The notes beneath the pieces are model-generated. The model was given only the letters and a program-made list of their open reading frames with translations, was not told the DNA's origin and ran no database searches. Positions 15,639 to 20,778 of a stretch of 64,000 nt of DNA are shown one piece after another. The DNA is taken from positions 744,001 to 808,000 of the forward strand of contig NZ_OCMS01000002.1 of NCBI RefSeq assembly GCF_900215325.1, read 5' to 3'. The translations under genes were made by a program, and so were the position numbers. The stretch's first letter is position 1, and the number at the start of each line of letters is the position of its first letter. Origin of the DNA: Fibrobacter sp. UWB16. Its GTDB lineage: Bacteria > Fibrobacterota > Fibrobacteria > Fibrobacterales > Fibrobacteraceae.

Positions 15639-15646
15639 GAGCACTT

Positions 15647-15720
15647 CGGGGTGTAGCTCAGCCTGGTAGAGCGTCTGCTTTGGGAGCAGAATGTCGTCAG
15701 TTCGAATCTGGCTACCCCGA
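15647..15720 (+). tRNA. tRNA-Pro (anticodon UGG)
   Basis: 74-nt cloverleaf. The acceptor CGGGGTG pairs with TACCCCG, with A as discriminator. The anticodon stem TCTGC/GCAGA encloses loop TTTGGGA, so the anticodon is TGG. The T-arm GTCAG-TTCGAAT-CTGGC is intact. The 3' CCA is not encoded. Confidence 0.95.
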
Positions 15721-15757
15721 TACGAAAAAGGCCCCCTCGTGGGGCCTTTTTTCGTAT
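15721..15757 (+). terminator. terminator of tRNA-Pro
   Basis: GGCCCC-ctcgt-GGGGCC stem extended by TACGAAAAA/TTTTTTCGTA, nearly perfect and therefore possibly bidirectional. Confidence 0.9.
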
Positions 15758-15759
15758 CA

Positions 15760-15953
15760 TAGGTAGCCAGATCAGCTTCACCGAAGGTGAAGCCCGAAGG
15801 GCAAGCTGGGAAGTGAGCGAAGCGAAACCGAAGCCAGCGCAGCCAATCTGGCTACCCCGCGATGCGTAAGCATCGGCGAAGCCGAATAGGGGCGAGAACA
15901 ATCTGGCAACCCCAATACGAAAAAGGACCCCTTGAGGGCCCTTTTTTCGTTTT
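15760..15953 (+). repeat. repeat-rich region with copies of the tRNA-Pro 3' end
   Basis: AATCTGGCTACCCC of the tRNA recurs at 15845-15858, and with one change (AATCTGGCAACCCC) at 15900-15913, where it is followed by a second terminator-like copy (AATACGAAAAAGG..., 15914-15950). An inverted GGTAGCCAGAT lies at 15762-15772. Between them are small hairpins such as CTTCACC-gaa-GGTGAAG and GATGC-gtaa-GCATC. No intact second tRNA is present. Confidence 0.75.
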
Positions 15954-16009
15954 TGTTCAATTTTTTTAGGTTGAAACTCATTTTTATATATATTCCGTCA
16001 TAAAAATGA

Positions 16010-16051: not shown

Positions 16052-17527
16052 ATGAGAAAGTTCACAATATGGAAATTGGCCACAACATTGGCATTTCTTG
16101 TTTCAATGAACGCCTGTTCGAATTCCTCTTCGCCGGATGATTCGGATGACTACACCGATTCTACATCCTCGAAAAATTCGGATGATGGTAAAAATTCCAA
16201 CAGCTCTTCAAATACTTGTGATGTTCTCAAGAAGCTTGAACTTGGTGCTCCGACAAATTTCACCGTAACCAAGGAATCCGATTCTCTGTGGCTCCTTTCT
16301 TGGGATTATACCCGCAATGAATCGCGTGCCGAAACTAATTTTGAAATTGAATCGTTGAATATGGACGATAAGTCCCCTAAGTGGGAAAGCGAAGGCACGA
16401 CTAATGCCGACGTTACCATTTACATGCTGAAGGGGGCTAAAAAGGCCGGTAAGTATTACCGTGTTGTTGCTATTGATAAATGCGGTAGGTCTAAAGAAAG
16501 CAATCGTCAGCAAATCAAGGCCGACGGAAATGCAACTGAAGATTCTACGACGACTACCGTGACAAGCGATATGCCGACGGATCTTGCTTTGACGCGAATT
16601 GCTCCGAGCATTTGGGAACTCAGCTGGAAATACAGTAACTTAAGTGATGATCCGAACAGGTCCTTTGTTATCCAGACTTCCAAGCTCAAGGATTTCAAGT
16701 GGAAGAGCATTAAATCCAAGATCGAAGGTAATGTCCGTAACTATTACATTCAGGGACGTGACCAAATTGAAACGTATTATCGCATTGCTGTAGTCAATAG
16801 TGGTGATACCTCTGCCTTTACTGAAGCTGTCCAGTTGACTCCGGATGTTGCATACCGTGATTACATGGCTCTCAATACTCCGACGCCGTCGACTAAGTTT
16901 ACTTTGTATTATAACACGGGTATTGAGGCGGATAAGGATACTTCTTCGGAAGATAAAGTGTACACAGGCGCTGTAGCGACTTATACAATTACGGAAAACC
17001 TCATTAGCAAGTATATCGTTGAATCCGAGTACACGGATACCGTTTATTACGAAGCCCGTTGGTTCACCTCTTTGGAAAATTACAACTACTATAAGGGCAA
17101 TTGCGAAGGTATGAAGAAGTCCAATAAGTGCGATAGTTGCTATTGGACTGAAACATTCCCGTATCAGGAACCGTCTATTTCGAAGCGCTTTAGTGTCTAT
17201 GACGATTATGCTGATGCCGAAAAGAAAACGAAAGTCTTTAATGACTGTGCATCCAAATATAAATATACGGCTGAAAACCATGCTAAACTTTATGATCCTG
17301 ATACAGATCCGGCAGAATGGAAAGCCATTGCTGCAAATGAAGCGAATATGGCGCTATGCCTTGAATCCTATGTCCGTGGAATTTGCGGATACTATGTACA
17401 AATTCGTGCTGTCTGGAAGGATAATGCGAATGGTAAGGGCAAGGGCGAAACGGACTGGAGCGAATGGACTCAGCCGTTCAATCTCAGTGACATCAGTGGC
17501 GCAGACGACCTCTGCAATACCAAATAA
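16052..17527 (+). CDS. lipoprotein with two fibronectin-III-like domains
   Basis: 491 residues. Signal peptide with lipobox MNAC, then an Asp/Ser/Asn-rich linker (about 23-55). Two domains of about 95 residues (about 65-160 and 172-265) share the pattern P.(N/D)L.(V/L)T....(S)LW.LSW.Y and YYR(V/I)A(V/I), as in fibronectin type III-like folds. The C-terminal half (about 270-491) has many Tyr and paired Cys (CDSCYW, CLESYVRGICGYY) and is unrecognised. It is probably a surface lipoprotein. Start supported by GGGAG at 8 nt. Monocistronic with a terminator downstream. Confidence 0.75.
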   Translation: MRKFTIWKLATTLAFLVSMNACSNSSSPDDSDDYTDSTSSKNSDDGKNSNSSSNTCDVLKKLELGAPTNFTVTKESDSLWLLSWDYTRNESRAETNFEIESLNMDDKSPKWESEGTTNADVTIYMLKGAKKAGKYYRVVAIDKCGRSKESNRQQIKADGNATEDSTTTTVTSDMPTDLALTRIAPSIWELSWKYSNLSDDPNRSFVIQTSKLKDFKWKSIKSKIEGNVRNYYIQGRDQIETYYRIAVVNSGDTSAFTEAVQLTPDVAYRDYMALNTPTPSTKFTLYYNTGIEADKDTSSEDKVYTGAVATYTITENLISKYIVESEYTDTVYYEARWFTSLENYNYYKGNCEGMKKSNKCDSCYWTETFPYQEPSISKRFSVYDDYADAEKKTKVFNDCASKYKYTAENHAKLYDPDTDPAEWKAIAANEANMALCLESYVRGICGYYVQIRAVWKDNANGKGKGETDWSEWTQPFNLSDISGADDLCNTK

Positions 17528-17550
17528 AGTCTAACGATTATTGCAAAAAA

Positions 17551-17584
17551 AGTCCGACATCGTTGTGATGTGCGGACTTTTTTC
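17551..17584 (+). terminator. terminator after the 16052 lipoprotein gene
   Basis: AGTCCGACATC pairs with GATGTGCGGACT (one bulge), followed by TTTTT. Confidence 0.8.
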
Positions 17585-17586
17585 AT

Positions 17587-17634
17587 GTCATGCCCACCTG
17601 TCATCCCGGACCCCGTTCCGGGAGGGCATCTCCT
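17587..17634 (+). repeat. palindromic intergenic repeat (GTCATGCCC...GGCATCTCC)
   Basis: GTCATGCCCACC followed by the hairpin TCCCGGA-ccccg-TTCCGGGA and GGCATCTCC. It looks like one copy nested within another: the outer TGCCC pairs with GGGCA. Confidence 0.7.
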
Positions 17635-17640
17635 AATAAT

Positions 17641-18012
17641 TTATTTCAAAAATGCAAAGAAAACGGCGGCGATGATGAACAAGAATGCAACGATGTGATT
17701 CCATTGGAGCGTTTCCGTGTGGAACACCGTCACGGCAATCGTTGTGAACACCGTAAGTGAAATGGCTTCTTGAATGATCTTCAATTGCATCAGGCTGAAC
17801 GGACCGCCATTGATGCGGCTGCCGATGCTGTTTGCGGGAATCATAAAGCAGTATTCAAGGAAGGCTAGGCCCCACGAAGCGAGAATCACAAGAATCAGCG
17901 GCCAGTCGGTGCTGATGTGCATTTCTTTGAGTTTGAGGTTGCCGTACCAAGCGAACGTCATAAAGATGTTGGAACAGCAGAGGAGGAGAATTGTAAAAAT
18001 ACCAGCTTTCAT
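17641..18012 (-). CDS. DUF486/DMT-like small membrane protein
   Basis: 123 residues with four predicted transmembrane segments. SNIFMTFAWYGNLK near the N-terminus, WGLAFLEYCFMIPANSIG in the middle and QLKIIQEAISLTVF match the DUF486 family, small relatives of drug/metabolite transporters. Substrate unknown. Full length for the family. The ATG at 18012 lacks a clear Shine-Dalgarno sequence. Confidence 0.88.
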   Translation of the reverse strand: MKAGIFTILLLCCSNIFMTFAWYGNLKLKEMHISTDWPLILVILASWGLAFLEYCFMIPANSIGSRINGGPFSLMQLKIIQEAISLTVFTTIAVTVFHTETLQWNHIVAFLFIIAAVFFAFLK

Positions 18013-18077
18013 AATTTAGTCATTAGCCAATGGTTATTAGTTGTTAGTGTTTTGTCATTGGGGCTTGCCCCATCCAG

Positions 18078-18644
18078 TTACTTCTGGGTCCGCAATCTAT
18101 ATGGTCTTCCTGTAGAATGTTGGTAGGCGAGGCGTTTGCGTACTTCTTCGAGATACTTGATGTAATTCTCGCTTTGGTAGTCGCGGTACGTCCAGTCAAA
18201 AGCGTGAAAATGTCCGTCCTGAAAATAAAGCGTCGGCTCCACGAAAATCCCGCGTTGCATATAAACGCGCTGGCGCTGGTCCTTGGTCGTTGCCAAAAAG
18301 AACTGCCCAAGCGTCATGTAGCCCGGATCGAGATTTACAGGGCGCAGTCCCGGAGTTCCGTTTGCTTTTGCAATTTCAAGTTCAATGTCGTTTGTCCAAA
18401 GCTTGATATCGACAATTGTTTCGCGGTCCACGAGCTGTTCGTAGCTAAAGAATGCTCGCACCGGAGCCATGCCGATTTCTTCTTTGTAGTAGTTGGTGAA
18501 TGTGAACGGGAACGGTTCCAAGTTCAGGTCTTCTTCGCCGAAACGCGACTTGAGCACTCCGCGGACCGCTTCTACGGATTCGGCATCTTTTGCGAGAATG
18601 CCAACGATGATTTTCACTTTGGCAGGAGTTCTGATTTCACCCAT
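18078..18644 (-). CDS. DUF4416 family protein
   Basis: 188 residues, matching the conserved pattern of DUF4416: KIIVGILAKD near the start, LEPFPFTFTNYYKEEIG, IKLWTNDIELE, PVNLDPGYM, LATTKD, GIFVEPTLYF and FDWTYRDYQ. Function unknown. It is soluble with no signal peptide. Only 26 bp separate its ATG from that of the divergent glutaminyl cyclase gene, and TAAATTTG (18650-18657) ends 5 nt before its start, so the message is probably leaderless. Confidence 0.88.
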   Translation of the reverse strand: MGEIRTPAKVKIIVGILAKDAESVEAVRGVLKSRFGEEDLNLEPFPFTFTNYYKEEIGMAPVRAFFSYEQLVDRETIVDIKLWTNDIELEIAKANGTPGLRPVNLDPGYMTLGQFFLATTKDQRQRVYMQRGIFVEPTLYFQDGHFHAFDWTYRDYQSENYIKYLEEVRKRLAYQHSTGRPYRLRTQK

Positions 18645-18649
18645 GCGCG

Positions 18650-18666
18650 CAAATTTAGTAATTTTA
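18650..18666. promoter_or_regulatory. back-to-back promoter elements of a divergent gene pair
   Basis: TAAATTTG on the minus strand (18650-18657) and TAATTTTA on the plus strand (18659-18666). Each ends 4-5 nt before its start codon (18644 and 18671). Confidence 0.5.
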
Positions 18667-18670
18667 CGAT

Positions 18671-19414
18671 ATGTTTAGAAGTTTATCTTTTTGTGCTTTT
18701 CTCGTCTTTGCTCTCTCGTCTGCCTATGCCGAGGCTCCGCGTGTCGTGCCGACAATTCTTGATTCTATTCCGCACGAAAAGTCTCACTTTACGCAGGGGC
18801 TCTCGTTTGATGGCAAGGACTTGATTGAAACCACGGGCCAGTATGGGAAATCGGGGCTGTATCGTCGTACGCTCGACGGAAAAATTCTTGATTCCGCACG
18901 CATTGAAGATCGTTATTTTGGTGAAGGTTCCGTTGTGCTTGGTGACGAGATTTACTACCTCACGTGGAAATCGCACAAGGCTTTTATTTATTCTCGCAAG
19001 CCTTTCAAAAAGAAAGGGGAGTTTCGCATCCCGACCGAAGGCTGGGGACTTACGCTTTGGCGTGACCAGCTTTTGATGAGCAATGGCTCCGATGAACTTT
19101 TGCAAATTGCACCGGGTGGCTTTGCTGTGTCGGGGATTATTAAGGTAACCGACGGTCGTTATTCAATTAAGCTTTTGAATGAACTTGAAGTCGTCGGAAA
19201 TCTTTTGTACGCAAACATCTGGCAAACGGACTTTATTGCTGAAATTGAACTTCCGAGCGGGAAGGTTCTCCGCTACATCGATTTCTCGAAAAAAGCGGGG
19301 GAGATTCGCGAAAAATTCCCTGGCGTAGATGTCTTGAACGGCATTGCCTACGACGGCAAGGATTTTTGGATTACCGGCAAGCTCTGGCCGCAAATCTATA
19401 AAGTCAAGTTTTAG
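18671..19414 (+). CDS. secreted glutaminyl-peptide cyclotransferase (plant-type glutamine cyclase)
   Basis: 247 residues: signal peptide (about 1-20, ending SSAYA) and a beta-propeller-type glutamine cyclotransferase domain. Family motifs are FTQGLSFDG, TTGQYGKSGL, FGEGSV, LTWK, EGWGLT, LLMSNGSDEL, LNELEVV, ANIWQTD, VLNGIAYDGKDFWITGKLWP. The enzyme converts N-terminal glutamine of exported proteins to pyroglutamate, probably in the periplasm. In organisms with type IX secretion this modification is common on exported proteins, but that link is inference here. It has no Shine-Dalgarno sequence. Confidence 0.9.
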   Translation: MFRSLSFCAFLVFALSSAYAEAPRVVPTILDSIPHEKSHFTQGLSFDGKDLIETTGQYGKSGLYRRTLDGKILDSARIEDRYFGEGSVVLGDEIYYLTWKSHKAFIYSRKPFKKKGEFRIPTEGWGLTLWRDQLLMSNGSDELLQIAPGGFAVSGIIKVTDGRYSIKLLNELEVVGNLLYANIWQTDFIAEIELPSGKVLRYIDFSKKAGEIREKFPGVDVLNGIAYDGKDFWITGKLWPQIYKVKF

Positions 19415-19420
19415 ATGAAT

Positions 19421-19542
19421 CTTGTCATTCCCCTAACGGGGCTTGACTTGTTCGCCTCGGATATAGAAACATGCAAGCATGTTTCTGCATCGCTCGGCTC
19501 CGTTGTCATTCCCGGACTCCGTTCCGGGAGGAAATCTCCATC
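19421..19542 (+). repeat. long modular intergenic repeat, copy B1
   Basis: CTTGTCATTCCCC-taac-GGGG followed by a module ending CTCGGCTCC, about 81 bp, one mismatch from 22517-22597. The central hairpin is AGAAACATGC-aa-GCATGTTTCT. It continues into a GTCATTCCCGGA...TTCCGGGAGGAAATCTCC element. Confidence 0.85.
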
Positions 19543-19574
19543 TCGAATCACTTTCCAAGTGCGATCGATTTTTG

Positions 19575-19582
19575 TATATTTG
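19575..19582 (+). promoter_or_regulatory. putative ssrA -7 element
   Basis: TATATTTG. It is nine bases before a degenerate copy of the tmRNA 5' end at 19592, the same spacing as for tRNA-Pro, but 160 bp before the real tmRNA start at 19743. Confidence 0.5.
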
Positions 19583-19591
19583 CGTTGAATC

Positions 19592-19757
19592 GGGGGTACT
19601 CTGGTTTGCTTCGAATAACGCTACTCGCGTTATTCTCACCCTTCGGGCTTTTCGAACGCACGGCGTTCTCAAAGGCTTAAACGCTCCTTAAAGTCGCGTT
19701 TAATCGACGGGTCTCAACCAGAGCACCCCCGGTGCAAGCACCGGGGGTGCTCTGGTT
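19592..19757 (+). repeat. duplicated and inverted tmRNA 5' end with hairpin array
   Basis: 19592-19607 (GGGGGTACTCTGGTTT) is a near copy of the tmRNA start. Then come hairpins at 19613-19635 (GAATAACGC/GCGTTATTC), 19654-19668 (GAACGC/GCGTTC) and 19678-19702 (TAAACGC/GCGTTTA). A perfect 20-bp inverted repeat (19716-19735 with 19738-19757) has the true tmRNA 5' end as its right arm. Confidence 0.85.
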
Positions 19758-20100
19758 TCGACAGGGTTACCGAAGTGTTAGTTGCAAGTCGAGGTCTCAG
19801 ACGAGGGCAACTCGTTAAAAAGTCTGAAAAAAAATAAGTGCTGACGAAAACTACGCACTCGCTGCCTAATTAACGGCAACGCCGGGCCTCATTCCGCTCC
19901 CATCGGGGTGTACGTCCGGACGCAATATGGGATAGGGAAGTGTCATGCCTGGGGGCATCTCCCGAGATTTACTAGGCTGGTCAAACTCCGCGCCGACCTT
20001 CTTGGGCGTGGATAAGACGAGATCTTAAATACGAAGGGAACACTTGTAGGAACGTACATGGACGTGATTTTGGACAGGGGTTCGACTCCCCTCACCTCCA
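19743..20100 (+). ncRNA. ssrA: transfer-messenger RNA
   Basis: 358 nt. The 5' GGGGGTG pairs with 3' CACCTCC (one G-U), with A as discriminator, and the T-arm AGGGG-TTCGACT-CCCCT gives the tRNA-Ala-like domain. The early TCTGGTTTCGACAGGG is typical of tmRNA. The tag reading frame at 19840-19869 encodes ADENYALAA and a stop. It rescues stalled ribosomes and tags nascent proteins for proteolysis. The 3' CCA is not encoded. The promoter appears to lie upstream of a 151-bp duplication, so the 5' end is probably made by RNase P. Confidence 0.97.
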
Positions 20101-20102
20101 GA

Positions 20103-20137
20103 AAAGAAAAGGGCTCTCCATGAGAGCCCTTTTCTTT
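20103..20137 (+). terminator. terminator of ssrA
   Basis: GGGCTCTC-cat-GAGAGCCC stem extended by AAAA/TTTT, then TCTTTTCT. Confidence 0.92.
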
Positions 20138-20151
20138 TCTGTTTTATAAGA

Positions 20152-20241
20152 ACCGCTCGGCTCTTGTGCAATTGGAAAAATCCATCTTCGCCTCGCTTTC
20201 GCGAACACGACCCGTTAATACGGGTCGCTTATCGCTCACAG
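20152..20241 (+). repeat. modular intergenic repeat (CCGCTCGGCTC type)
   Basis: ACCGCTCGGCTCTTGTGC, a small hairpin (ATTGGA-aaaa-TCCAT), CTTCGCCTCGCT, then CGACCCGT-taat-ACGGGTCG and GCTCAC. The same order with different stems occurs at 35223-35316. Confidence 0.75.
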
Positions 20242-20289
20242 AAGTAAATTTCAAAAAATCTTTCTAAATTAAATTCAAAAGGAGGTTGT

Positions 20290-20703
20290 ATGGATTGCAG
20301 AATCTTAGTTCGCTTTATTGGAGTTCAAGAGGATCTTGATGCTTTGTGGTCCGAATTCATGGAGCATTTCCCAGAGGCCGAACTGCCGAGTGTCGATTCC
20401 GGAGAATGGTATTCTGTCGAAGACTACATGACTGATGAATACGAATGCCGTTTCGAAGAACTCCCTGAGTCCGAACTGTATGCGGTCGATGGAACCTTCC
20501 TTGTCGAAAACGAACCTCCTGAGGATGTCCTGACTGAAATCCTGGAACGCTTCGAGCGCGTGTATGCCGTGTTCAAGTGGTCTACGATGGATGTTGGCGT
20601 GGGCTGCGGAACGAGCGAAGGTTGGGGTGAATTCAATGCAGACCGCGCCGATGACGGTTCTGACGAAGCAAATGAAATCTCCGAAGCCGTGCTAGGTTTC
20701 TAA
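20290..20703 (+). CDS. small acidic hypothetical protein
   Basis: 137 residues, strongly acidic (many Asp and Glu), no signal peptide or membrane segment. It starts MDCRILVRFIG and ends with an Asp/Glu-rich tail. An excellent AAAGGAGGT precedes the start by 5 nt, and codon use is like that of neighbouring genes, so it is a real gene. No family was recognised. It stands alone between the tmRNA and GH8 genes. Confidence 0.75.
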   Translation: MDCRILVRFIGVQEDLDALWSEFMEHFPEAELPSVDSGEWYSVEDYMTDEYECRFEELPESELYAVDGTFLVENEPPEDVLTEILERFERVYAVFKWSTMDVGVGCGTSEGWGEFNADRADDGSDEANEISEAVLGF

Positions 20704-20778
20704 ATATTTTTCGAATTGCTTTGTTTTTAAGCTCTTTTCTTGTCTAAAATTTTTCTTGCAATTTCAACATAAAACTTC

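Follow-up and report, generated by a model that had tools for sequence, protein, structure and literature searches.

Intervening sequences and palindromic elements occur inside stable RNAs, as in the IVS of 23S rRNA, and integron attC sites consist of a single long imperfect stem with R and L boxes and a GTTRRRY core. The T-loop is said to be a known crossover sublocation of genomic islands, reportedly from work by Williams in 2002. For islands in tRNA and tmRNA genes, the available text of two papers describes a target that is split, an intact gene that is regenerated and a displaced fragment at the far end (PMC4383910; PMC9897764). REP and GTAG palindromic repeats are mobilized by RAYT transposases (PMC3733652). 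A literature search for Fibrobacter tmRNA leaders or tRNA-associated palindromes of the sort described here returned nothing, and the cassette family reported below is previously unnamed.

The window (the whole stretch analysed, 64,000 nt from Fibrobacter sp. UWB16) carries an ordinary one-piece tmRNA gene, like known members of RF00023. The covariance model matched over its full length (model 1–374, E = 1.2e-66, 168.1 bits) with model position 1 at 19743, and ARAGORN read the tag frame ADENYALAA. The locus is unlike an ordinary RF00023 tmRNA in that a 151-bp unit separates the promoter from the gene (Table 1). The tmRNA start, CGGGGGTRCTCTGGTTT, is present as a direct copy at 19591–19607 (A1) and again at 19742–19758 (A), an offset of 151 bp. 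An inverted copy, A′, faces A (19711–19735 against 19738–19762); the inner 20 bp (19716–19735 and 19738–19757) are perfect, with 2 nt between the arms. The unit at ssrA runs from the tmRNA 5′ end to GGTTT, through the cassette, CGACAGG, the inverted 5′ end and a short loop to the intact gene, and within the inverted 5′ end GTCGAAACC is changed to GTCTCAACC. The initial annotation of this DNA had described a tmRNA gene with a duplicated and inverted 5′ end and a perfect 20-bp inverted repeat ending in the true start, and both were reproduced at the positions given. Its count of three further hairpins in the insertion has to be revised to four conserved helices. REP-like palindromes (GATATAGAAACATGC/GCATGTTTCTGCATC and CCCGGACTCCGTTCCGGG) are found at 19440–19535, just 5′ of the ssrA promoter.

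Table 1. Features of the ssrA and tRNA-Pro loci in the window, with strand and basis of assignment
Feature	Position	Strand	Basis
tRNA-Pro(TGG), second target gene in the window	15646–15721	+	ARAGORN
Degenerate unit by tRNA-Pro, CGGGGTAGCCAGATT-hairpins-GATCTGGCTACC (antisense)	15761–15858	-	sequence; weak R2 match 15701–15858 (-), E 0.036
Further tRNA-Pro 3′-end copy (AATCTGGCAACCCC) with own terminator copy	15859–15955	+	sequence
TATATTTG, predicted promoter -7 box, now driving the displaced fragment	19575–19582	+	motif
A1, displaced tmRNA 5′ fragment GGGGGTACTCTGGTTT, left arm ending TT	19592–19607	+	direct repeat with 19743–19758
Cassette, 97 nt, four hairpins, between TT and CGA	19608–19704	+	R1, R2 matches; covariation
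Cassette hairpin 1 (GAATAACGC/GCGTTATTC)	19613–19635	+	7/9 pairs changed on both sides across relatives
Cassette hairpin 2 (CCC TTC GGG)	19639–19647	+	invariant in alignment
Cassette helix 3 with inner hairpin 19654–19668	19648–19674	+	7/10 pairs changed on both sides
Cassette helix 4 (TTAAACGC/GCGTTTAA)	19675–19705	+	6/9 pairs changed on both sides
Right arm CGACGGG, continuing the tmRNA D arm (gene: CGACAGG)	19705–19711	+	sequence
A′, inverted copy of tmRNA 5′ end, site GA read as TC	19711–19735	-	inverted repeat I1
tmRNA gene (ssrA), intact	19743–20100	+	ARAGORN; RF00023; tag ADENYALAA
ssrA intrinsic terminator	20099–20141	+	sequence

Promoters were called by motif. From 16344 to 20778 the + strand has no TAnnTTTG other than the predicted box of ssrA. 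It lies 17 nt from the displaced copy, and the same box at tRNA-Pro (15631) lies 15–16 nt ahead of its gene, in agreement with the near-equal spacing first noticed in the initial annotation; the box is now 168 bp from the tmRNA. The initial annotation also required that no promoter lie directly before 19743, and the motif scan of 19583–19742 found no TAnnTTTG or sigma-70-like site. Because no promoter is nearer than TATATTTG, transcription should start near 19588–19592 and give a precursor about 150 nt longer at its 5′ end. A long tmRNA precursor that requires 5′ trimming is likely, judged from the sequence. In the predicted lowest-energy fold of this precursor (-200.0 kcal/mol), an A′:A hairpin holds the mature 5′ end while A1 pairs with the acceptor strand at the 3′ end; a fold constrained to the true acceptor stem gave -188.0 kcal/mol, a cost of 12 kcal/mol, which fits the earlier suggestion that the precursor could trap the mature 5′ end. 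In the model, A1:A′ can form first during transcription, leaving A free. The ssrA leader fold has a predicted energy of -66.5 kcal/mol (z = -7.3), and none of 200 shuffles was as good. A long tmRNA isoform starting at A1 was considered and set aside: the fold allows it, but A1 is degenerate in several genomes.

Eighty Fibrobacter genomes, many of them metagenome assemblies, were searched with RF00023 and the ssrA regions read. Sixty-two tmRNA starts were readable, with element classes assigned by script and by eye. The box sits just 18–29 nt ahead of the tmRNA start, with no insertion, in 17 of the 62 genes, in support of the proposal that an ancestral start had been displaced by a structured insertion. 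A homologous cassette is present in 31 leaders, 26 of them assigned by script; in the other five (L034, L044, L060, L062 and L069) the script had scored TAATTTTG within the cassette as a promoter. Nine leaders have another hairpin insert, four genes have the cassette solely upstream of the promoter, and one (L008) retains a collapsed remnant. L059 has an empty site whose promoter and leader are the same as those at the filled sites of L040 and L063. DNA searches detected the type-1 cassette in 43 of the 80 genomes, always by ssrA where the locus was readable; where a matching contig had no annotated ssrA, the sequences that were fetched were inspected by eye. Because half the genus has the homologous cassette in common, a tandem duplication private to this ssrA was rejected. 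A genome-wide dispersed element like ordinary REPs was ruled out for type 1, for which matches in its own genome outside ssrA reach at most 18 bp.

A1 is homologous in 51 distinct elements, and several of its copies lack GGGGGTG. Compared with the true tmRNA start, A′ was the better match than A1 in 18 of 26 genomes, with 8 ties and none worse. Either selection for the hairpin or simple palindrome correction could account for this match; the latter is favored because half the species do without the unit.

Further variants were seen at these loci. At the tmRNA start of L018, L042, L033, L028, L066 and L070 there are hairpin inserts of other kinds, among them REP-like repeats that are dispersed in Fibrobacter (CGGCTCGGATATGC..., GGTTCGGCCATG...); in L018 a REP-like repeat is located at the same TT|CGA upstream of ssrA, and the type-2 inserts at ssrA contain a dispersed REP. 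In L072 (G070) and L073 (G063) the inverted copy is joined straight to the tmRNA body and the gene 5′ end is missing, a fusion that could be a real deletion or a collapsed assembly, and these two look collapsed. The tmRNA D-loop of L039 (G003) is GGCATCGAC, and the upstream inverted copy is altered likewise (GTCGCTGCC) despite the promoter between them. L067 (G014 contig 134) is a very different tmRNA with the tag ADSKKSVANNNYALAA, from a genome with 8% contamination, and is probably foreign. ARAGORN gives tmRNAs of about 505 nt in several of these genomes, in which annotation pipelines can thus mis-call tmRNA ends.

Two covariance models were built, R1 from ssrA cassettes and R2 from tRNA cassettes with no ssrA sequence. 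R1 matched the window cassette at 19602–19708 (115.4 bits), and the tRNA-trained R2 matched the same positions with E = 2.3e-7; E-values from shortened calibration are rough. No Rfam family matched the cassette at gathering score (best sub-threshold E = 0.19, other strand), which separates it from group I and group II introns and other described RNA families. Across 29 aligned cassettes, 96.5% of helix cells are standard pairs and 20 of the 31 pairs are changed on both sides. The covariation score was 0.447, compared with 0.154 for shuffled and at most 0.115 for slid controls; the shuffle control is inflated by related sequences, and the slid control and per-pair table agree with each other.

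A structure maintained as RNA normally uses more G-U pairs than were seen here. The ssrA cassettes have 860 Watson–Crick, 10 A-C and 6 G-U cells, so that G-U is no commoner than A-C, and the tRNA cassettes have 365, 5 and 10, respectively. Because G-U is almost absent, the cassette is read as a DNA palindrome, or as one kept perfect by hairpin-templated correction. The rarity of G-U and the opposite gene orientation at ssrA and at tRNAs point to a constraint at the DNA level. A new ncRNA gene had been considered on account of the covariation and was weakened by these same two features.

The ssrA-cassette model also finds weaker copies away from ssrA, adjoining tRNA genes, and R2 matches 76 of the 80 genomes. 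A tRNA gene lay alongside in 39 of 40 newly sampled loci, which were picked from model matches and not at random; it was always Pro-TGG, Pro-CGG, Ser-CGA or Gly-CCC, and the exception was a contig end. At most tRNA cassettes the left flank corresponds to the acceptor and T-stem strand of that tRNA read antisense and stops in the T-loop; the right flank starts CGAAC, continues the T stem and is followed by the inverted copy. The flanks are split at the same TT|CGA as at ssrA, and the orientation to the gene is opposite to that at ssrA. Of 61 tRNA elements, 56 have a left arm that fits its own neighbor best, as do 50 of 51 ssrA elements, and the window unit has the same properties: homology to R1 and R2, arms TT and CGA, and arms taken from the neighboring gene. 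The comparison of ssrA upstream regions proposed in the initial annotation showed the cassette in other leaders, and the element is not private to ssrA. Because the same family occurs at tRNA T-loops in opposite orientation, it is DNA that is targeted, and no role particular to tmRNA maturation has to be invoked.

Units repeat in tandem with a copy of the tRNA terminator, and they occur in other Fibrobacteraceae genera as well. In the window, 15722–15955 contains the tRNA-Pro(TGG) terminator and then two more units, each ending in a tRNA 3′-end copy. Across genera, the A′ arms of both tmRNA and tRNA units have TC in place of the target GA, possibly a footprint. Among the matches listed at E 1e-6, no genome of the phylum outside Fibrobacteraceae was found, and a cassette pattern run over one genome per species (84,980 species) matched Fibrobacter and Fibrobacterales records only. 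None of 2.9 million viral contigs in IMG/VR matched three cassette patterns, and a phage carrier was set aside on this result. Retro-insertion from mature RNA was likewise rejected, the tRNA left arms having no CCA complement by eye.

Whole genes interrupted by the cassette were also found. Two extra tmRNA genes in G011 and one in G030 are complete save for a 96-nt cassette between GGTTT and CGACAGG, the right arm running on into the full tmRNA body, and whole tRNA-Pro genes are split by the cassette in G065 and G037. When the flanks were joined, in silico only and to show the empty site, ARAGORN recognized full tmRNAs and tRNA-Pro genes; split tRNA copies with the cassette left in were not found by the program. 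At the loci of G011 (L042) and G030 (L047), tmRNA genes stand in tandem, two or three in number; the additional ones have the cassette in their D arm, and no recognizable TATATTTG promoter was seen with them. In a tree of 71 cassettes, those at ssrA group together in a single clade (100/100). Those at Pro-CGG occupy two or more supported positions, with Pro-TGG-like cassettes in one and Ser-like cassettes in another, and cassettes therefore appear to have switched tRNA gene and acquired new arms. A point against the explanation that follows is the single ssrA clade, by which ssrA may have been reached only once.

The probable explanation is that stable-RNA genes of Fibrobacteraceae are entered at TT|CGA by small non-coding hairpin DNA elements, after which the gene is restored beside a displaced fragment of itself; at ssrA the outcome would be a long tmRNA precursor. 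The site, the arms, the hairpins, the split genes and the distribution can be read directly from the sequences. A cassette of about 95–115 nt would enter TT|CGA in the tmRNA D-loop (TTTCGAC) or in the tRNA T-loop (TTCGAA, read antisense). In the end product, a displaced gene end with the cassette would be followed by the same end in inverted copy and, last, by the restored gene, and repetition would accumulate tandem units. At ssrA, displacement of the 5′ end would have left the promoter box at its present distance; the gene would be read as a long precursor and the structured leader removed at G19743, probably by RNase P. The cassette itself would move as a DNA palindrome through an enzyme acting on it. 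A Y1 transposase of the RAYT type was rejected as the mover, the own genome (G000) having no match to PF01797; its four tyrosine recombinases (PF00589) lie at C1:86766, C2:217891, C5:136199 and C2:117017 and do not adjoin the units. Further points count against the probable explanation. A′ fits no nameable insertion mechanism, although a template switch on the hairpin during insertion is one possibility, and compensation in palindromes can also come from hairpin-templated mutation.

A wider proposal is offered tentatively and falls short of probable: the hairpin cassettes, having no arms of their own, may make up a novel kind of mobile non-coding DNA. Such a cassette would enter stable-RNA genes at TT|CGA, borrow the arms of its stem, inverted copy included, from every gene newly entered, and leave that gene restored; a host or phage enzyme that works on folded single strands could carry it between tRNAs and on to tmRNA. 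On the probable explanation, a family of miniature elements would live on tRNA and tmRNA gene ends, with a sharp site, target-derived arms and split-gene intermediates, and the spread of non-coding palindromes without an enzyme of their own would become directly testable. The same explanation predicts a long tmRNA precursor in about half of Fibrobacter species, with a hairpin in the leader that can enclose the mature 5′ end, and that predicted hairpin (about 20 bp and more in this genome) would be a hard RNase P substrate.

Remnants of genomic islands targeted to tRNA and tmRNA genes are an unlikely source of the units. Tyrosine-integrase crossover in the T-loop would have left the gene ends, and the hairpins would be attachment-site DNA. 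A displaced fragment with a regenerated gene is an island signature according to the available text of PMC4383910, and the units do include copies of both the gene end and the terminator of the tRNA. Nevertheless, they measure only about 150–200 bp, contain no genes and have no adjoining integrase in the own genome; islands have no counterpart of the inverted copy A′, and the IMG/VR search with the three patterns gave no contig.

Alternatively, the leader could be a functional RNA, with a switch between A1:A′ and A′:A pairing that sets the timing of tmRNA maturation. The fold energies given above, an A′:A hairpin of -44.0 kcal/mol, the strong helix compensation and the tracking of the true tmRNA start by A′ in every informative genome all speak for such a switch. 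It is decidedly unlikely nonetheless: the cassette is absent from the leader in 31 of the 62 genomes, 17 of which have no insertion at all, GGGGGTG is lost in several A1 copies, and the same cassettes lie antisense beside tRNAs with G-U pairs hardly used.

We regard as quite improbable a replication accident alone, in which fold-back template switching at a palindrome made A-A′-A and no mobile element took part. The A′/A palindrome with its 2-nt spacer, the conversion of A′ to match A and the several genome assemblies that end at this palindrome would suit it. This explanation is already weakened, as it leaves unexplained why four tRNA species have a homologous cassette at this same TT|CGA, with arms specific to the tRNA, and why whole genes are split. 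An assembly artefact of palindromic DNA has next to no chance of being correct, for although some assemblies break here and L072 and L073 look collapsed, the same arrangement recurs in dozens of independent assemblies from several genera.

Insertion at TT|CGA can be compared with the described systems. Compared by eye only with attC sites, the cassette has four hairpins that are separate from one another, and no clear GTTRRRY was seen at its site. With the 23S rRNA IVS type it shares a hairpin insert in a stable-RNA gene, as in the split tmRNA and tRNA copies; in Fibrobacter, however, an intact copy is present beside the split ones, and the majority of units are fragments that lie outside the gene. 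The likeness to genomic islands lies in the regenerated target and displaced fragment, seen in the direct repeat at 19592 and 19743 and in tRNA units with neighbor-specific arms. In contrast to islands, the units are small and gene-free, only about 135 bp lie between the copies and hold no integrase (the PF00589 matches are elsewhere), the displaced end at ssrA is 5′ and not 3′, and an inverted target copy follows the cassette. REP/RAYT systems are alike in their small, lineage-specific, non-coding palindromic units, which form arrays and are possibly moved as hairpins. Besides having no cognate Y1 (RAYT) transposase in G000, the Fibrobacter elements differ from these in being confined to stable-RNA genes at TT|CGA, in their target-derived arms and in their four-hairpin cassette.
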